A DNA stretch of 64,000 nucleotides, from positions 1 through 64,000 of IMG/VR virus record IMGVR_UViG_3300028827_000100; one strand, 5' to 3'. The DNA is from a virus. How positions within the stretch are numbered: the first letter of the stretch is position 1; every line of letters begins with the position of its first letter. The notes beneath the pieces were generated by a model. That model worked only from the letters and a program-made list of their open reading frames with translations. It was not told where the DNA came from and did not search any database. Both the position numbers and the translations under genes were made by a program. Of the stretch, positions 2,969-58,222 are shown one piece after another.

Positions 2969-2998
2969 GTTTTATCCGGTATGAGAGGAGGAAAAAAA

Positions 2999-3862
2999 AT
3001 GTTTGAAGTGATTGAAAAACTGAATAAGGATTTGAAGGAAGCGGCAAAGAGACTTGAAGGGAGGGAATGCAGGTATCTCGTTGATGCATATTACATGATT
3101 CAAGAGTATAGAAAGTCTCTTGCAAATCAAATCAGGATGTCCGGCGATGAACCTAACGCCCTGATTGGCTGGATGTTTGAGCAGGCAAAGGTTGTTGAGA
3201 ACAACATCAAAAGAGCGTTAGATGTTTACACTGACGAAAATCCTGTTGGCGTCTGGATGAAATCAATCAAAGGCATTGGCCCTGTTCTTGCGGCAGGATT
3301 ACTTGCTCATATAGACATAGAGAAAGCACCTACTGTTGGGCACATCTGGTCATTTGCCGGACTTGACCCCACGAAGAAGTGGGGGAAGGGGCAGAAGAGA
3401 CCGTGGAATGCACGGTTGAAAACTTTATGCTGGAAGATAGGAGATTGTTTTGTTAAGGTCTCAAATCGCCCTGATGATTTGTATGGTAAGCTGTACAAGG
3501 AGAGAAAAGAATATGAAATCAGCAAAAACTTGAGAGGGGAATATGCAGAGCAGGCGGCAGAAATTTTGAGAACAAAAAATATAGGTCGTGACACGGAAGC
3601 GTACAAATATTATGTTCAGGGGCTTCTGCCGCCGGGCCATATAGACATGAGGGCAAGAAGATATGCTGTTAAACAGTTCCTTGCTGATTTACACTATGTA
3701 TGGTATAGATACCATTTTAAGAAGGAGCCGCCAAAACCGTATCCTATAGCTATACTTGGCCATGCTCATGAGAGGGAAAAGCCATTGTTTAGAACGATTG
3801 TTCCGGCAAAGCGAGCCATAGAAAAGGATAGTACCCGGAATAGGGAGCGAAAAAGTATATAG
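2999..3862 (+). CDS. Orphan IS110-like protein (C-terminal Tnp/HhH part only)
   Basis: A 287-residue protein. ATG 2999 is used because AGGAGG lies just upstream and inside the longer frame from 2981. Residues 88-107 form a helix-hairpin-helix (IKGIGPVLAAGLL). It is followed by AGLDP at 120-124 and a basic stretch GKGQKRPWNARLKTL, the arrangement of the C-terminal domain of IS110/IS116/IS902 recombinases (Pfam Transposase_20). The usual N-terminal DEDD RuvC-like domain is absent: residues 1-85 are helical. No Ser stands where the catalytic Ser of the Tnp domain is normally found after GLDP; TKKWGKG is there instead. A further helical tail (150-245) is not typical of IS110. No IS ends are seen. 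The repeat array at 3775-4054 starts within the last codons. Probably a domesticated nucleic-acid-binding protein; recombinase activity looks unlikely. Confidence 0.85.
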   Translation: MFEVIEKLNKDLKEAAKRLEGRECRYLVDAYYMIQEYRKSLANQIRMSGDEPNALIGWMFEQAKVVENNIKRALDVYTDENPVGVWMKSIKGIGPVLAAGLLAHIDIEKAPTVGHIWSFAGLDPTKKWGKGQKRPWNARLKTLCWKIGDCFVKVSNRPDDLYGKLYKERKEYEISKNLRGEYAEQAAEILRTKNIGRDTEAYKYYVQGLLPPGHIDMRARRYAVKQFLADLHYVWYRYHFKKEPPKPYPIAILGHAHEREKPLFRTIVPAKRAIEKDSTRNRERKSI

Positions 3863-7996: not shown

Positions 7997-8198
7997 CGTA
8001 ATGGGAATTTTACTTGGCAGTGTGATGTTTGTGTTTTTTATAGAGAACATTTCGGACTTTCTGTCTTACAGGGTTGAGTCGAGAAGGTGCGGCCCTTATT
8101 TGAAAAGAGAATATGTTGCAATATCAAAGAAGCATATGTGGAATGCGGTACTTTATCTGCTACTCGCAATTGCCGTGTTTGTTGCGGTTTTTGTTTAG
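7983..8198 (+). CDS. Small membrane protein
   Basis: 71 residues from ATG 7983 (GGGGGAGGTG upstream). Two hydrophobic segments: about residues 5-22 (VMGILLGSVMFVFF) and the last 18 (AVLYLLLAIAVFVAVFV), with a basic link (SRRCGPYLKRE). Probably an inner-membrane protein. No family recognised; superinfection-exclusion and host-takeover roles are both possible but unsupported. Confidence 0.75.
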   Translation: MNGFDVMGILLGSVMFVFFIENISDFLSYRVESRRCGPYLKREYVAISKKHMWNAVLYLLLAIAVFVAVFV

Positions 8199-8208
8199 GA
8201 GGAAAAGG

Positions 8209-9600
8209 GTGAGTGTTGAATTGTTTACTACTCAAGATTCGATAGCATGGCTTTTGCTTGGCAAATGTGAAAGGGCTATGGGGGAAATGCCAGACAACTA
8301 TGTGGATACTATTATTACTGACCCGCCTTATGGCCTTCAGTTTATGGGGAAGAAGTGGGATTATGATGTGCCAAGTGTAGAGACGTTTCAGGAAATGTTG
8401 AGGGTGGCAAAGCCCGGCGCAACATTGCTTTGCTTTGCGGGCGCAAGAACTCAACATCGGATGGCAGTGAATATTGAAGATGCGGGATGGGAACTGAAGG
8501 ATTGCATTATGTGGATTTACGGATCAGGATTCCCGAAGGCGACAGATATAAGTAAACAGATTGACAGGAAATTTGGGGTTAAGGGGGAAGTTATGGACAA
8601 GAGAAAGGGTTGTAGTCGAAAGCGTATTTATAATGTGGCGGTATATTCTGGATCATCAGGCAGGGAATATGAGATAGTTGCTCCTACCACCCCCGAAGCA
8701 AAACTCTGGAACGGCTGGAAATCACATGGGCTCAAACCTGCCTATGAACCTATTCTCGTAGCAATGAAACCAAACGAAGGTAGCTATGCACAGAACGCAT
8801 TGAAATGGGGTGTGAGCGGGTTGAATATAGATGGTGCGAGGATAGAATTAAAGGGTATTGAAGAACATACTACGGAAGCAAAAAGCGGTCTTGGTAAAAG
8901 GATATATGGAAAATATAAAAATAAACCAACCATAACATCTGATTTGCCGAGATATAACATTAAAGGTCGCTACCCCGCCAATATCATCCTTGACGAAGAA
9001 GCCGCAAGAATGCTGGATGAACAAATAGGCGACCAAGGCGGTGCATCACGATTCTTCTATGTTGCCAAGGCATCAAGGGCAGAAAGAAACATGGGGCTTG
9101 AAGACTTACCCGCCAAAGAGAGGGCCAATATCAATAAAATGATGGGAAGTGATGACAACAGTATGCTTACAGGTAGTGGAAATAAGCGGAATAATAAATT
9201 GCAAAACTTCCACCCCACTGTCAAACCTCTGGAGTTAATAGTATATTTGTGCAACCTTACCAAAACTCCATTTGGCGGGGTTGTACTTGATCCATATATG
9301 GGAAGTGGCACAACCGGAATTGCGTGCCTCATTACAGGTAGGGATTTTATTGGTATTGAAATGAAGCCTGATTATTATAAAGTGGCTTGTGAGAGAAGTA
9401 AGTATGTGAGTAGAAAGTTGCTCAAAATCAAACATAATCCTTTTGAACTCATATCTAATCTGGATGATTCAAATGAACTTGAAAGGTTGATTAAGAATTA
9501 TTCAAGGTTTGTGTGTGGGCACAAACTTAACAATCCAAAATTGAATAAAAGTAAGGGGGGTGAAAAAAACAGGCAAGGTGATACACTTTTTAAATATTGA
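8209..9600 (+). CDS. DNA methyltransferase (beta class, DPPY)
   Basis: About 463 residues from GTG 8209, chosen for AGGAGG at 8197-8202. Motif IV TDPPYG lies at residues 37-42. Motif I, LDPYMGSGTTG, lies near residue 360, followed by FIGIEMKPDYYKVA. The long central part includes a GGASRFFYVAKASRAERN segment seen in phage site-specific methyltransferases. DPPY fits N6-adenine modification, N4-cytosine being less likely. Organisation differs from the enzyme at 776 (SPPY), so the phage probably modifies two sequences. The C-terminal tail after residue 400 is Lys/Asn-rich and may be a recognition or accessory region. No restriction partner is seen. Confidence 0.93.
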   Translation: MSVELFTTQDSIAWLLLGKCERAMGEMPDNYVDTIITDPPYGLQFMGKKWDYDVPSVETFQEMLRVAKPGATLLCFAGARTQHRMAVNIEDAGWELKDCIMWIYGSGFPKATDISKQIDRKFGVKGEVMDKRKGCSRKRIYNVAVYSGSSGREYEIVAPTTPEAKLWNGWKSHGLKPAYEPILVAMKPNEGSYAQNALKWGVSGLNIDGARIELKGIEEHTTEAKSGLGKRIYGKYKNKPTITSDLPRYNIKGRYPANIILDEEAARMLDEQIGDQGGASRFFYVAKASRAERNMGLEDLPAKERANINKMMGSDDNSMLTGSGNKRNNKLQNFHPTVKPLELIVYLCNLTKTPFGGVVLDPYMGSGTTGIACLITGRDFIGIEMKPDYYKVACERSKYVSRKLLKIKHNPFELISNLDDSNELERLIKNYSRFVCGHKLNNPKLNKSKGGEKNRQGDTLFKY

Positions 9601-28758: not shown

Positions 28759-29222
28759 AGAAGTCGGAAGTTGTGAAACAGTGTAGAACGATGATGGTGT
28801 TTTCTGCACGACCCGGAGAGAAGCAGGTATTTTGTCCACTTTGCAGAAAGTGGAAGTTTGAGAGTCAATTGTGTGAATATTCTCCGGTTGGAAAGAATCT
28901 TGAGGAGATGGTGAAGGATGCGGAAAAGGAAAAGGAAAGGGAAAGGAAGAGAGTTAACGGGCAGAGATTTCATGGCGACGGTTTAAATCAGGTAAGGGTG
29001 AAGGAAAATATTGAAAGGGTCGGCAATGCCATTGAGAAAGGTGAAGGTCTGTTTTTTGTATATGTGGATTCAAAAGGTGAAGTGAGCGAGAGGGTTGTTG
29101 TCCCGGTTGAGGTACAGGGGTATACGGTTCTGGCGAAGTATAACGGGGAATGGAGAAGGTTTTATCTTGACAGAATGTATGCTGTTCGAGAAAGGAAGAT
29201 TGTGGAGGAGGAAAAGGAATGA
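28755..29222 (+). CDS. Hypothetical protein with CPLC zinc half-site
   Basis: 155 residues, ATG 28755. Contains FCPLCRKWKFESQLC, a probable three-Cys metal site, followed by a Lys/Glu-rich helix and a beta-rich C-terminal part (VVVPVEVQGYTVLAKYNGEW). The last bases overlap the endolysin start (ATGA). No family recognised. Confidence 0.7.
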   Translation: MKKSEVVKQCRTMMVFSARPGEKQVFCPLCRKWKFESQLCEYSPVGKNLEEMVKDAEKEKERERKRVNGQRFHGDGLNQVRVKENIERVGNAIEKGEGLFFVYVDSKGEVSERVVVPVEVQGYTVLAKYNGEWRRFYLDRMYAVRERKIVEEEKE

Positions 29223-29695
29223 GCAGGTCACTCAATTTATTGCATCCGCTTTTGCTTGACAAGTTTTTCGAGTTTAAGAAGGCAATGTCTGAAGCAGGTC
29301 TCGATTTCATCGTTACGTGTACCGGACGTTCGATACTTGAACAGATTGCTCTGTATGCACAGGGAAGAATGGATATATTTGACGTGAACAAGTTGAGAGA
29401 CGTTGCCGGACTTCCAGCAATTGGTTCGGAGTACAACAAAAAAGTTACATGGACTCTAAACTCACGCCACGTGATAAATATGTTTGATTCTGATTTAAAC
29501 AACGACTATTCAAGAGCATTTGACATTGCTCTTGAAAAATATTCGAGACCGCATTGGAATTTGAAAGTAGACGTAAACGAAAATGAGATACCGGATTACG
29601 AAGAGGCCGGAAGGATAGGAGAGAGTGTTGGTCTTGAGTGGGGTGGCAGGTGGAAACACAAGGATTATGTTCACTTTCAGTTGCCGGGGGTGTGA
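29219..29695 (+). CDS. Endolysin, M15-family peptidase (L-Ala-D-Glu endopeptidase type)
   Basis: 158 residues, peptidoglycan peptidase of the VanY/CwlK M15 type. An N-terminal helix (LLDKFFEFKKAMSEAG) precedes strand IVTCTGRSILEQIALYAQGR. The metal-binding motif is SRHVINMFD...AFDIAL (His and Asp ligands), and the C-terminal GGRWKHKDYVHFQ supplies the second His. It cuts the stem peptide of the cell wall at lysis. No signal sequence is present, so it needs the adjacent holin-like protein. Start overlaps the previous stop, AGGAGG upstream. Confidence 0.92.
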   Translation: MSRSLNLLHPLLLDKFFEFKKAMSEAGLDFIVTCTGRSILEQIALYAQGRMDIFDVNKLRDVAGLPAIGSEYNKKVTWTLNSRHVINMFDSDLNNDYSRAFDIALEKYSRPHWNLKVDVNENEIPDYEEAGRIGESVGLEWGGRWKHKDYVHFQLPGV

Positions 29696-29698
29696 GAA

Positions 29699-30064
29699 AT
29701 GTATGCACAGTATATAGCAATAGGGTTTGTATTTATAGTTGGACTTGTGTGCTTTGTAACAGGTATGCTTGCCGGTTCAAAGCAGAAAGTCAATCCGTGG
29801 ACTCTGTTTTGTGAAAAGGGAAAGAATGATGGAAGGCTCTCGATAACAAGGGTCGTTATAATCACAATACTTGTGTGGTTTCTGTATGAAGCGGATAAAA
29901 TCATCAACGCTACAATGGATACGATTAAGGCAGGTGGCAACATAGTTGTGCCGGATTTTCCAGAGGGTCTTGTGTGGCTGATTTGTGTAATATACGGGGT
30001 TAACAAGGGAGCACCTGTTTTTGAAAATATTGCTGAAAAGATGGGAAGGAAACATGGGGGTTAG
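29699..30064 (+). CDS. Holin-like membrane protein
   Basis: 121 residues, three hydrophobic segments: about 5-26 (IAIGFVFIVGLVCFVTGML), 51-66 (RVVIITILVWFLYEA) and 88-106 (EGLVWLICVIYGVNKGA). It lies 3 nt after the endolysin and before the spanins. The topology and position fit a holin that opens the inner membrane for the endolysin. The motif W-L-I-C-V-I-Y-G-V-N-K resembles other phage holins I know. ATG 29699. Confidence 0.8.
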   Translation: MYAQYIAIGFVFIVGLVCFVTGMLAGSKQKVNPWTLFCEKGKNDGRLSITRVVIITILVWFLYEADKIINATMDTIKAGGNIVVPDFPEGLVWLICVIYGVNKGAPVFENIAEKMGRKHGG

Positions 30065-30065
30065 A

Positions 30066-30593
30066 ATGGAAGAGCTTTCTATACAGGTATCGTCCCTAAA
30101 GACGAGTGTTGACCACATAGCAAAGGCGATAGACGAGCTGAAAAAGAGCCACGAGACAATTGTTGCCACACTTTCAAAGCTCGATGCCATGAACGAGAAG
30201 TTCAGAGCCAACGACGATTCGCACAGAATGATATGGGAATCCATACACTCTCTCGAAAAACTTGTTCGGGATGAAATCAAAAGCCTGTCTGCTTTTAGAC
30301 GTGACCAGTGCATGGATTGTATAGACAGGCTTTCGAGCATAGAAAGATTTGTAGAGGGGAGGGCCGAACCTTTTTTCGACATGGTTGATTCTCTCGAAGA
30401 CAATCACGGTATAGATTTGAAATCTATCATGATGTGGGTTGCGTCTGTAAGGAAAAACATAACTGGGGTAGTTAAGCCGCTGGTTGTATGGTTTATCATT
30501 GCTGTGACTGGTTTCATGCTTTTCATGTATGCAACTCACTACCCCTTTTCAAAATCGGATAAGAGCAAGCCACAGATTACAACGACCGAGTAG
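30066..30593 (+). CDS. Coiled-coil protein with C-terminal membrane anchor
   Basis: 175 residues from ATG 30066; the frame extends upstream into the holin gene but has no better site. Residues 5-110 are heptad-rich (VSSLKTSVDHIAKAIDELKK). At 142-162 there is one membrane segment (PLVVWFIIAVTGFMLFMY). The arrangement resembles XhlA-type lysis accessory proteins, though size and orientation differ. It is in the lysis cassette. Confidence 0.75.
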   Translation: MEELSIQVSSLKTSVDHIAKAIDELKKSHETIVATLSKLDAMNEKFRANDDSHRMIWESIHSLEKLVRDEIKSLSAFRRDQCMDCIDRLSSIERFVEGRAEPFFDMVDSLEDNHGIDLKSIMMWVASVRKNITGVVKPLVVWFIIAVTGFMLFMYATHYPFSKSDKSKPQITTTE

Positions 30594-30601
30594 GGGGTTG
30601 T

Positions 30602-30757
30602 ATGTCCTGTTACAACGTGTATATGTACATTGCCTTTGTAATTATAGCCGTGTCTATCTGGAAGATATGTTCGCATATAAGATTTTTTGTAAGGCACGGG
30701 ACAAAAAAGAAAGGGTGGTGGAAACGTGATGTCGATGTTGATGAAATTGGCAGGTAG
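30602..30757 (+). CDS. 51-residue single-span membrane protein
   Basis: ATG 30602 (AGGGGGTTGT upstream) to TAG 30755-30757. One membrane segment at about 7-23 (VYMYIAFVIIAVSIWKI), then a basic tail (RHGTKKKGWWKR). It overlaps the i-spanin gene by 29 nt in another frame. It could be an antiholin or small lysis regulator; this is positional inference. Confidence 0.65.
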   Translation: MSCYNVYMYIAFVIIAVSIWKICSHIRFFVRHGTKKKGWWKRDVDVDEIGR

Positions 30758-31142
30758 TGTTGCAGGATACAAAATGTACATAGCAGTTGCAGTTGCCGCA
30801 TTTCTGGTCGGGGCTGGCGGCGGCAGTTGCACGATGTCAAAAATAAAAAATATAGAGATAGAGAAGGGGAAAGTGGAGATAGAAAAACTTGGCGCAAAGG
30901 TTGAGAGGCTTGAAAACGAGAACAAAAGTATAAAAGATGCACTTGCAGGGTGTGACCTTGAAAAGAAGACAATTATTGATTCCTGTGACACAAGGGCAGA
31001 AAAATACAGGGTGATGGTTGAAAGGTTGAGAAAAATATGTTTCGCCGAAAACGGCAATGGAGGAGAACATGAAACGATTGGTGATACCGGCAATAGCACT
31101 ATTAACAATCTTCTTAACAGCATGTTCCCTGTGCAAAAGTGA
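30729..31142 (+). CDS. Rz: i-spanin (Rz-like)
   Basis: 137 residues. An N-terminal membrane segment at about 16-33 (MYIAVAVAAFLVGAGGG) is followed by a long coiled coil (EIEKGKVEIEKLGAKVERLE) and a tail with Cys. This is the topology of the inner-membrane spanin subunit, which spans the periplasm with the o-spanin to fuse the membranes at lysis. The o-spanin start lies inside it in another frame, the classical Rz/Rz1 overlap. ATG 30729 after AAAGGGTGGTGG. Confidence 0.85.
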   Translation: MSMLMKLAGSVAGYKMYIAVAVAAFLVGAGGGSCTMSKIKNIEIEKGKVEIEKLGAKVERLENENKSIKDALAGCDLEKKTIIDSCDTRAEKYRVMVERLRKICFAENGNGGEHETIGDTGNSTINNLLNSMFPVQK

Positions 31143-31395
31143 AGTAAGGACTGAAATAAAATACATAACACCTGAAATTCCGTCTATACCTGAAAGTCCT
31201 ACATATGAGCCGGTTACTTTCAGGGAGTATTCGATTGACGGGGTTACGTATCAGATGCTTGATACTGAAAACGCAAGAGCACTCTTGTTTAATGTTGAAT
31301 TGATGAAAGGACAAATTGAACAGCTCAAGCAGATTATATTCCAGATAGAGCAAACTGTTAGCACAGGGGAGGGTGGAGAAGATGGTACACGCTGA
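31069..31395 (+). CDS. Rz1: o-spanin lipoprotein (Rz1-like)
   Basis: 108 residues from ATG 31069 (GGAGG upstream), overlapping the i-spanin by 74 nt in another frame. Signal peptide MKRLVIPAIALLTIFLTAC with lipobox LTAC (Cys19) predicts an outer-membrane lipoprotein. A Pro-rich segment (PEIPSIPESPTYEP) is typical of Rz1 proteins. With the i-spanin it indicates a host with an outer membrane. Confidence 0.88.
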   Translation: MKRLVIPAIALLTIFLTACSLCKSEVRTEIKYITPEIPSIPESPTYEPVTFREYSIDGVTYQMLDTENARALLFNVELMKGQIEQLKQIIFQIEQTVSTGEGGEDGTR

Positions 31396-31759
31396 ATACC
31401 CGTCTTATTCCGACAATGGTATACATGCGACCATAGACCTCTTTGGATGTGATATGGAACAGATAGAAAATCCGAAGTACGTGATGAAAATTCTCAAAGG
31501 AGCGTCGGAGAAGGCGGGGGCGAAAATACTTGGGGAGATGGAACACAAGTTCAAACCGATGGGTTACACGGCCATTTTGATGTTGAGTGAGTCACATATA
31601 TCCATCCACACCTTTCCCGAAAGGGGGAGTTGTTCGATAGATGTATATGTGTGCTCTATCATGAAAAAAATGGATTTGCAGAAAGCAATAGAATATATCT
31701 GCAAAGCATTTATTCACAGCTACAAGCAGGTAAATACTTATGTAAGAGGGATAAGATAA
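31382..31759 (+). CDS. speD: S-adenosylmethionine decarboxylase proenzyme (class 1B)
   Basis: 125 residues from ATG 31382; a GTG at 31373 is in frame but lies on the ribosome-binding sequence. The pyruvoyl site is SESHISIHTFPERG, where Ser71 becomes the pyruvoyl group after self-cleavage following Glu70. His76 and Cys91 match the processing and catalytic residues (His68 and Cys83 of the Thermotoga maritima enzyme). It makes decarboxylated AdoMet, the aminopropyl donor for spermidine and longer polyamines, which stabilise nucleic acids in thermophiles and neutralise packaged DNA. The start overlaps the o-spanin by 14 nt. A virus-borne SpeD is uncommon. Confidence 0.95.
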   Translation: MVHAEYPSYSDNGIHATIDLFGCDMEQIENPKYVMKILKGASEKAGAKILGEMEHKFKPMGYTAILMLSESHISIHTFPERGSCSIDVYVCSIMKKMDLQKAIEYICKAFIHSYKQVNTYVRGIR

Positions 31760-31772
31760 AGAGGAGGTCGGT

Positions 31773-32081
31773 ATGGGCAGAAAGAAAAAGAGAGAGCACG
31801 AAGAAGACAGGTCAAAAAGAGAAGAAAAAAGTTTGAAGAAGAGAATAGAGTCTTTCTTCAGGGCGTGTGAGAAACTTGAAGACGTAAACAGTATCCGCAT
31901 CTATGACAAGAGTGGAACTGGAGAAAAGATGCTGTTTGTTGTTGACAGCAAACTTTCAAGGCAATCCGGGGTCAGCGAGTTGATTAAGAATGAATTTGCT
32001 GATTCTTCATGCAAAATTGTGTATGTCAGGTTGCCGGAAAAATTAAAGCCTGAAACAAAATTTGAATATGTAGTGGGGTGA
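31773..32081 (+). CDS. Hypothetical protein with basic N-terminus
   Basis: 102 residues, ATG 31773 after GAGGAGG. The first 30 residues are a mixed Lys/Arg/Glu helix (MGRKKKREHEEDRSKREEK). The rest alternates strands and helix (SIRIYDKSGTGEKMLFVVD). No family recognised. Confidence 0.7.
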   Translation: MGRKKKREHEEDRSKREEKSLKKRIESFFRACEKLEDVNSIRIYDKSGTGEKMLFVVDSKLSRQSGVSELIKNEFADSSCKIVYVRLPEKLKPETKFEYVVG

Positions 32082-32457: not shown

Positions 32458-33015
32458 ATGTATGGAGTTGGACACTACAGCAATTATGAATATGAGGCAA
32501 TAAGGCTTATACCCGGCGATGTTGTTCTTGCAAAGAAGCATGGGAATGTGGTGTCAGAAATTATAAGTGGATATAAAACTTCAAAATTTTCACACGTTAT
32601 GCCGGTTCTCGACTCGAACAGACTTGTAAGTGCGGAGTGGCCGAGGGTTGTATTCAGAAGTATATACGACTTTTGCAACGAAGACTACAGAATAAAGATA
32701 ATTAGACCGACTGTTGAATTGACACGTGAAGATGTCAGAAAGTGGTGTGCGGCTGGCGAAGAAGCTGTAAATAAAAAATATGATTTGTATTCATTCATAG
32801 GTCACATACTGAATAAGGTTGGTTTTCAGAAGAACAGCATGTTCAACTGTGCGGAAGTGACGTTGAGGTGCTTCAACTCGATTAACAGATATGTAAGCAT
32901 ACCTTTTGATTTTGTCAGCCCGCACACTTTTGAGGTGATGTCTTATACCAACGATTTTATTACGGTTTTCAGTGCCGATGTTATGTCGGCAAGTTTCAGA
33001 AAGATATTTGTTTAA
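32458..33015 (+). CDS. Permuted papain-fold (NlpC/P60-like) hydrolase
   Basis: 185 residues. Motifs of YiiX/DUF830-type circularly permuted NlpC/P60 enzymes: LIPGDVVLAKKHG, a His strand FSHVMPVL, then KYDLYSFIG and MFNCAEVTLRCF with the likely catalytic Cys. In the permuted family His comes before Cys, as here. Substrate unknown: wall peptide or lipid/amide bond. Near the lysis genes it may help cell-wall remodelling or entry. ATG 32458. Confidence 0.75.
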   Translation: MYGVGHYSNYEYEAIRLIPGDVVLAKKHGNVVSEIISGYKTSKFSHVMPVLDSNRLVSAEWPRVVFRSIYDFCNEDYRIKIIRPTVELTREDVRKWCAAGEEAVNKKYDLYSFIGHILNKVGFQKNSMFNCAEVTLRCFNSINRYVSIPFDFVSPHTFEVMSYTNDFITVFSADVMSASFRKIFV

Positions 33016-56209: not shown

Positions 56210-58222
56210 ATGCCATATGTAAAACCTGGAGTTTATATTCGACAGAAATATGTACCTACAAGTTCCACACCCGGCGTTTTTCTGATTCCGTGCATAATAG
56301 GAAAAGGTCTTGAAGACAAGAGGGTGTGGGGTGAAGAAATAGTGCGTGGTCAGATAAGGGAAACGATAACAGTCGATCCCAACACTGGAGCATTTACAAT
56401 ATCCGGTGGGCAGAGTGACCAGTTGAATCAGCACACCACCCTGATAAGAGATGGTGTTGACCTTGGGCATGATGCTGTTACATGGACGAGTGCTACAGGC
56501 GGTAATGTGAAGATGGAATATGTAATTGCCGGTTCAGTATATGAAATTGTCTATCTTGCCATTGATACAACATCGGACAAGCTGAACAACAATGCTAACA
56601 GGGTACATTTTGTGGCTTCAACGCCGGACGGTTCTTCTCAATATGAGAGAGGAGTTGACTATTCATGGTCTGAAAGTACACCGGATGAAATAGACTGGAG
56701 TATATTGCAGGAAGCAAAAATAATCGGCAATGCTGAAACTTACGACTTGTCTGCAAATGACACTGTGAAAATTTCCGTGGATGGCAAAACACCTATTGAG
56801 GTTACAATAGTTGGTGCAACTCAATCCGCAGTAACGGCGGCTGAAGTTGCGACAGCGATAAATGGAGCGGCACAGACGGCATGGGGGAGTGCTTACTCAA
56901 ATATAGCTGTTGACAATGCCGGGACGATAGAATTGCACAGTGTGCAAAAGGGGTTGAATGGCAGAATTAATCTGTACGTTCCTTCTGCAAACGATGCAAC
57001 ACAGATAATTTTCAATGTTACCGCTCCATCTTACGCAACCGGAACTGGTCAGATGCCAGCACTTGGTGAATCTTACTATGTGAGGTATGATTATGACAGG
57101 GATGATGTTGAATATAACAACATGACACTCTATTACAGTTATTCTGATGCTCTTGATGCCCTTGGCCCAATGAAGCCCGGAAATGATTTGCTGATAGCTG
57201 TTGAAAGTGCGTTTCAGAATGGTGCACCGATAGTTGGCGTCATACAGGTGAAGGATGCAGACGGAGACGGTCTGTATATGGATTCGGACTGGTTCACTGC
57301 AATAGACGAGCTTGACAATGCAAGGGAGGTTACAGACGTTGTTCTTCTGTCTCACGATCAGGAAGTTAAGGCGTATCTTGTCAGGAAGATAGAGGACAGG
57401 GCTTCACAGCTTGTGGGGCATCATATGGCTGGATGGTTTGGGATGCCAGCAAACAGCAACATTGGAAACATAGATACTCCCGATACTGCCATATATGTTT
57501 CGCAAAAAACCTTGCAGGTATCAGCACAGAGTCAGGGTAGGGGCAGGTATATCAATGTATTTGTTCTTACAACCGGCGATTATGATTTTTCTGGTATAAA
57601 CAAGGAGATAGTAGATACTGATTCGAGAGTGACATTTACAGTTACACTTGGGACTGAATATGTTGCCGCCGCACTTGCAGGGTTGCAGGCAAGTTTCAAT
57701 CCGATAAGTGAATCGCTGTTAAGGCGTTCAATAGTCGGGTTTGACACAAGCAATATAATAGAGCATGATACAAAAGCGTCGTATGCTACTGCAAATGGGG
57801 TGTTTGTTTTGCAGAACATCGGTGGAAGGCTTGTTGTGTTTGACCCTGTTACAACTGATACGGGTGGTGACGAAGTTTTTTCAGAGCCGAGCGTAAGAGT
57901 CCAGAAGGACTATCTTGCTGGAAGAATAAAAAACAGGCTTGACCAGTACGTTGTCAGTGTTGTGCCGGACAATCTTGACGATTTTCTTTTTGAAATAAAG
58001 TATCACATAGCAATAGAGATAAATGCCGCTATTGTTGGGAGGGCCATAGCACCGTATACAGACGACAACAACGTTGCAAGGCCACTTGACCTCGTTAGCG
58101 ACATAAAGGTTTACAAATTTCCTACCTCAAATACCGAATACGGGTTTGTGTACTGGTTTCAGCCGAGATGGGTTTCCAAGAAGATTTTTGGTGAGTATGT
58201 CGTTGCACAACCTTTAATGTAA
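56210..58222 (+). CDS. Contractile tail sheath protein
   Basis: 670 residues, ATG 56210 after AAGGAGGT. N-terminus MPYVKPGVYIRQKYVPTSST and PGVFLIPCIIGKG, the classical sheath start. Central long beta and helix domains (YYVRYDYDRDDVEYNNM, EVTDVVLLSHDQEVKAYLV). C-terminal pattern LDQYVVSVVPDNLDDFLFEI, then AIEINAAIVGRA and VYWFQPRWVSKKIFGEYVV, which extends arms to neighbouring subunits. Identifies the phage as a myovirus. The tail tube gene follows. Confidence 0.93.
   Translation: MPYVKPGVYIRQKYVPTSSTPGVFLIPCIIGKGLEDKRVWGEEIVRGQIRETITVDPNTGAFTISGGQSDQLNQHTTLIRDGVDLGHDAVTWTSATGGNVKMEYVIAGSVYEIVYLAIDTTSDKLNNNANRVHFVASTPDGSSQYERGVDYSWSESTPDEIDWSILQEAKIIGNAETYDLSANDTVKISVDGKTPIEVTIVGATQSAVTAAEVATAINGAAQTAWGSAYSNIAVDNAGTIELHSVQKGLNGRINLYVPSANDATQIIFNVTAPSYATGTGQMPALGESYYVRYDYDRDDVEYNNMTLYYSYSDALDALGPMKPGNDLLIAVESAFQNGAPIVGVIQVKDADGDGLYMDSDWFTAIDELDNAREVTDVVLLSHDQEVKAYLVRKIEDRASQLVGHHMAGWFGMPANSNIGNIDTPDTAIYVSQKTLQVSAQSQGRGRYINVFVLTTGDYDFSGINKEIVDTDSRVTFTVTLGTEYVAAALAGLQASFNPISESLLRRSIVGFDTSNIIEHDTKASYATANGVFVLQNIGGRLVVFDPVTTDTGGDEVFSEPSVRVQKDYLAGRIKNRLDQYVVSVVPDNLDDFLFEIKYHIAIEINAAIVGRAIAPYTDDNNVARPLDLVSDIKVYKFPTSNTEYGFVYWFQPRWVSKKIFGEYVVAQPLM

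Follow-up and report, generated by a model that had tools for sequence, protein, structure and literature searches.

The 64,000-nucleotide stretch of viral DNA analysed here (the window), part of the 105,878-base record of a tailed phage of the myovirus type, carries a speD gene whose product is a class 1b S-adenosylmethionine decarboxylase (AdoMetDC) with an intact predicted catalytic triad, and this gene is inserted into the lysis operon (Table 1). Based on sequence and predicted structure, it is probable that the product acts as a bona fide AdoMet decarboxylase that feeds host polyamine synthesis and is transcribed with the lysis genes.

Table 1. Positions of speD, its predicted key codons and the neighbouring genes in the window
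Feature	Position	Strand	Basis
speD, class 1b S-adenosylmethionine decarboxylase proenzyme, 125 aa	31382..31759	+	profiles, alignment, AlphaFold model
Ser71 codon TCA, predicted pyruvoyl-forming serine	31592..31594	+	alignment to T. maritima S63; PMC10407285
His76 codon CAC, processing residue	31607..31609	+	alignment to T. maritima H68
Cys91 codon TGC, catalytic residue	31652..31654	+	alignment to T. maritima C83
Endolysin, M15 peptidase	29219..29695	+	PF13539 43.4 bits; PHROG 465 endolysin E 2e-23
Probable holin	29699..30064	+	PF05105 E 0.0043, below cut-off
Coiled-coil protein, C-terminal TM, function not assigned	30021..30593	+	PHROG 739 E 0.00035
Probable i-spanin, N-terminal TM and coiled coil	30726..31142	+	PHROG 739 Rz-like spanin E 0.0055
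Probable o-spanin, lipoprotein with lipobox LTAC	31057..31395	+	architecture; PHROG Rz-like spanin E 0.005
102-aa protein, 13 bases past speD	31773..32081	+	family searches gave no match worth reporting

Identity and predicted processing of SpeD

The speD reading frame starts with ATG and comprises 125 codons; an alternative in-frame GTG at 31373 would lengthen the protein by three residues, and a purine-rich, Shine-Dalgarno-like stretch lies upstream, with GGAG close to the start. The product matches PF02675 (E 3.9e-29; 101.6 bits against a cut-off of 25), the NCBIfam equivalog TIGR03330 for Bacillus-type class 1b enzymes (102.1 bits, above the cut-off of 75.65) and PHROG 3125, annotated 'S-adenosylmethionine decarboxylase' (E 3.8e-27), and the SpeD structures of T. 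maritima and Aquifex (A. aeolicus) are matched by sequence at E of about 1e-17. The AlphaFold model (pLDDT 88.6, pTM 0.81) superposes on T. maritima AdoMetDC (1tmi_A) with a TM-score of 0.84 and an rmsd of 1.5, and 1tlu was matched as well; in size and fold, the model is a single AdoMetDC half-sandwich within the class range of about 110-140 residues. The family profiles, the structure matches and the predicted fold agree and confirm the class 1b assignment first made in a sequence-only reading of this DNA. The gene is the sole one of its type across the entire record.

The residues which that reading had named, Ser71, His76 and Cys91, are correctly numbered, and all three are invariant in the alignment, in which the columns E70-S71, H76 and C91 correspond to S63, H68 and C83 of T. 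maritima (for Ser, His and Cys); the roles of the catalytic and processing residues are taken from PMC10407285. The protein is predicted to cleave itself between Glu70 and Ser71, and the enzyme is probably active.

Substrate preference and alternative readings

Two types can be told apart among SpeD homologues. One, the short-loop type, to which the proteins of T. maritima, A. aeolicus, S-PM2 and P2559S belong, has the motif HxFxPxG ahead of the processing site, whereas the other, the insertion type, carries about 15 extra residues there and is common among CPR bacteria, DPANN archaea and delta-proteobacteria. Arginine and ornithine decarboxylases (ADC and ODC) have been found in groups that match the insertion type (PMC10407285). 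Genes of both types are adjacent in some bacterial and archaeal genomes (L160, at 1474 and 2840; L043, at 3974 and 4324; L044, at 3938 and 4377); this arrangement suggests a different job for the insertion type, as expected for paired AdoMet and ornithine/arginine decarboxylases.

The window SpeD belongs to the short-loop type: it reads FKPMG and HTFPE and lacks the insertion of roughly 15 residues. Its motif, EHKFKPMGYT...SESHISIHTFPE, may be compared with EHKFEPQGYT...AESHFAIHTFPE of Croceibacter phage P2559S and SHKFHPQGVT...AESHISIHTWPE...DVYTC of S-PM2; an E. coli speD mutant regained spermidine with either of these two phage proteins (PMC9992855). Phe78 of HTFPE, at the position of T. 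maritima Trp70, and Tyr89 of DVY have an insertion-type look; since the Phe is shared with P2559S and the Tyr with S-PM2, both residues are compatible with AdoMetDC activity. A conserved proline separates AdoMetDC from ADC, and four residues, Gln, Thr, Phe and Tyr, are diagnostic of ODC (PMC10407285). The two candidates for this proline, in FxPxG and HTxPE, are kept in the window protein.

The division into two types was supported at 100/98 in a first tree and 100/100 in a second, with the window protein on the short-loop side. With 108 columns and long branches, its exact placement varied between the trees: it joined the base of the insertion clade in the first (92/64) and lay among phage AdoMetDCs, with weak support, in the second, and its grouping with the insertion clade was not rejected by the AU test (p 0.078). 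The label of the insertion clade comes from the taxa and gene contexts in it, the rows of the tree not including enzymes published with ADC or ODC activity, and HTVC201P, the ADC anchor, was not among the matches in the phage collection. In the second tree, the insertion clade also contains a proven AdoMetDC, that of phage phiN3, which agrees with the published tree, so clade membership alone is no proof of substrate. The phiN3 protein (Sinorhizobium phage; L168, open frame from 1420) is itself a strongly altered AdoMetDC, reported functional, in which QDSHSSAHFCD replaces ESHxxxHTxPE. No other polyamine gene is linked to the window speD; thus, a gene-context clue to the substrate is missing.

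We regard AdoMet as the likely substrate, and the switch to arginine or ornithine raised in the sequence-only reading is disfavoured, given the short loop, the position outside the insertion clade, the retained motifs and the likeness to phage enzymes of proven AdoMetDC activity. In such a switch, a neofunctionalised homologue would decarboxylate L-arginine or L-ornithine and supply agmatine or putrescine, as several phage SpeD homologues do (PMC9992855). The phage record has no speE, the Phe and the Tyr (two before the Cys) recur in many CPR, DPANN and delta-proteobacterial homologues, and the first tree puts the window protein nearest the insertion clade; however, the insertion common to that clade is absent, a proline distinguishes AdoMetDC from ADC and both candidates are present, and AdoMetDCs of proven activity also carry this Phe and Tyr, which leaves this reading unlikely. 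The more specific version, an arginine or ornithine decarboxylase that arose independently on a short-loop scaffold without the insertion and is put to use late, together with the lysis genes, appears slightly less likely again.

It is improbable that the protein is a relic that has lost catalysis or processing, or that it serves as a regulatory subunit in the manner of the trypanosome prozyme. Its terminal branch is long (1.2 to 2.0 changes per column), its catalytic Cys is flanked as Val-Cys-Ser, the usual Thr-Cys-Gly surroundings being lost, and close relatives for a purifying-selection test are lacking, but the ORF is full-length with every processing residue present, its codon use is ordinary for the phage, and the AdoMetDC fold is confidently predicted. 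The family chemistry would consume AdoMet and, according to PMC7877911, phage SAM lyases exist, so SpeD might be imagined as an AdoMet sink that blunts host methylation or restriction, like the T3 SAM lyase; the phage's own three DNA methyltransferases need AdoMet, however, and a position in the lysis operon is probably too late for counter-defence. This reading was set aside as very improbable. Host-sequence contamination, which the sequence-only reading had allowed for, or misassembly is the most remote explanation of all and was likewise set aside; no point in its favour was found, and it is opposed by phage genes on both sides, the overlap with the o-spanin ORF, and phage-like GC content (41.3%; rank 60 of 115 phage genes) and codon use (rank 41 of 115). 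Because of these ordinary values and phage flanks, speD is a resident phage gene. An AdoMet decarboxylase remains the preferred reading.

Position of speD in the lysis operon

The M15 endolysin, the holin, the coiled-coil membrane protein, the spanin-like pair, speD and further small genes follow one another in this order on the same strand with tiny gaps. The ORFs of the probable i-spanin and o-spanin overlap by 86 nt, which is the overlapping Rz/Rz1-type spanin architecture, and the probable o-spanin ORF in turn overlaps speD by 14 nt, as had been noted earlier. The spanin and holin labels, which are probable, derive from architecture and weak profile matches (spanin PHROG E about 0.005).

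No plus-strand terminator-like site was found inside the endolysin-to-speD run, and speD is likely co-transcribed with the lysis genes, since it is inserted into a late operon. The proposal that it is expressed with them is supported by strand and by the uninterrupted run, while its late timing is suggested by the neighbouring genes. The position had also been called unexpected for a metabolic gene. The position is real, but the surprise is weakened because other phages too place speD beside late genes: MTATph1, and ZRG1, in which it lies near the terminase. The analysis gave no sign of a link between the SpeD enzyme and lysis itself, and no direct lysis role is proposed. Downstream of speD in the operon, the protein encoded at 32458-33015 weakly matches permuted papain-like C92 peptidases, and no relatives of it were found in viral contigs.

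The phage genome and the relatives of speD

Identified structural and packaging genes include those for the terminase, portal, major head protein and baseplate wedge, and those for replication and repair include a DnaE-type polymerase, primase, RecA/UvsX, SbcD and an exonuclease; one tRNA-Leu gene and no other tRNA gene was found. Among named phages, the major head protein is closest to that of virus Rctr197k (48%), followed by the jumbo phages Lu11, PaBG and Motura. None of the eight records found via the capsid protein (two of 175 and 188 kb, some of them fragments) carries speD, so a gain in this lineage or a loss elsewhere is likely. A search for relatives sharing the lysis cassette yielded endolysin homologues, with no speD or spanin homologue beside them within the stretches fetched. 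The search with the protein encoded at 56210-58222 found no relatives. Three DNA methyltransferase genes (776-1942 and 8113-9600 of the window; 86683-87483 of the record) have their best match in one PHROG (67), and in the protein encoded at window positions 2981-3862 a short segment matches the IS116/IS110/IS902 transposase domain (PF02371, 29.1 bits).

Polyamine genes of phages are under active study, and the majority come from marine cyanophages. When other viruses were searched for speD, as had been advised, 141 phage records in the collection matched, and phage speD genes have been tested biochemically (PNAS 2023); phage speD is thus already well documented, and the window gene is a divergent addition. 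Its best identity to anything found in viral and cellular searches is about 40%, and the tree row with the highest identity to it (40%) is an insertion-type homologue from Patescibacteria. No donor lineage emerged, as no viral or cellular sequence exceeded about 42% identity over most of the length. The genome-contig search used the peptide pattern HISIHTFP, which is biased towards the insertion type; consequently, the CPR/DPANN organisms among its matches are no host signal.

The composition of the phage proteome, with (E+K)/(Q+H) of 3.7-3.9 and IVYWREL of 0.42, hints at a warm or thermophilic host and is suggestive only: the ratio is 1.8-2.3 in freshwater cyanophage-like loci and 5.5 in a phiYS40 stretch, and high values also occur in a stretch of a Bacillus cohnii phage (3.4) and in one capsid relative of low GC content (3.8).

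Possible role in infection

The activity, substrate, timing and benefit that we infer for SpeD would fit together as follows. Once the 125-residue proenzyme cleaves itself at Glu70-Ser71, Ser71 would become the pyruvoyl cofactor, with His76 and Cys91 completing the active site, and AdoMet would be converted to decarboxylated AdoMet. Neither a spermidine synthase (speE) nor an arginase/agmatinase was found in the phage record; the product would thus feed a host enzyme, SpeE or another aminopropyltransferase, and any effect on host polyamines would depend on the host. Spermidine supports translation, and charge balancing of packaged DNA has been suggested as a role. Spermidine or longer polyamines might in this way stay in supply during particle assembly, both for translation and to neutralise packaged DNA, a demand that expression from a late operon would suit; a role of SpeD in packaging may accordingly be envisaged. 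Infection by phage JG004 fails in a P. aeruginosa speD mutant (PMC3120641), which implies that phages can depend on the SpeD step.

The significance is modest. The gene adds a divergent speD to a myovirus lineage that has Rctr197k/PaBG-like phages among its relatives and whose searched capsid relatives lack one. As a phage auxiliary gene it is of an ordinary kind, and only its position inside the lysis operon is somewhat unusual. If the transcript is late, this placement would tie SpeD to particle assembly and not to early metabolic takeover.

Comparison with other phage and cellular SpeD proteins

The SpeD of P2559S (AFM54845; activity proven, PMC9992855) resembles the window protein in EHKF-x-P-x-GYT and HTFPE, the short loop, its phage-borne gene and the lack of an adjoining speE (about 42% identity over 61% of the query); unlike in the window, its host is a marine Bacteroidetes bacterium and speD follows an ORF with a methyltransferase domain, not lysis genes. 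Those of the Synechococcus phage S-PM2 (AdoMetDC activity proven; 45% identity over 67% of the query) and other cyanophages (PHROG 3125) are likewise class 1b with a short loop, but they have Trp in place of Phe (HTWPE), and their genes lie in nucleotide-metabolism or auxiliary modules and not in a lysis cassette. The Moorella phage MTATph1, a thermophile's phage, has a SpeD of putative activity with EHKFYPLGYT and late structural neighbours, which joins the window protein weakly in the second tree; it differs in HTYPE and in that the gene (L130, 2998-3354) has on either side one annotated as a major head protein. Thermus phage phiYS40 offers a proven AdoMetDC in a thermophile's phage (PMC9992855), but this protein is very divergent (GESHLSWHYWIDEG) and its gene lies near those for thymidylate synthase and dUTPase. 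The pyruvoyl arginine/ornithine decarboxylases SpeDA/SpeDC (PMC10407285) share the fold and the catalytic residues, with Phe and Tyr in many homologues, whereas homologues assigned to them have the insertion of about 15 residues and SCK/TCK at the Cys.

Three further phage loci carry speD in other arrangements. In Microcystis phage MaAM05 (MW495066.1, 1998-4776), a short-loop speD, an insertion-type speD homologue, speE and speB (agmatinase) are adjacent, and with these four genes a single phage record could encode the complete route from arginine to spermidine; in the report on Microcystis phage PhiMa05 (PMC8093824), SpeD is the only polyamine gene mentioned. In Bacillus phage vB_BcoS-136 (2252-3325), the SpeD domain lies inside a 357-residue protein with N-terminal and C-terminal extensions. 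In Synechococcus phage S-EIVl (2992-3275), speD is split over two frames, the annotated protein having about 52 residues, and this split is a frameshift or a sequencing error.
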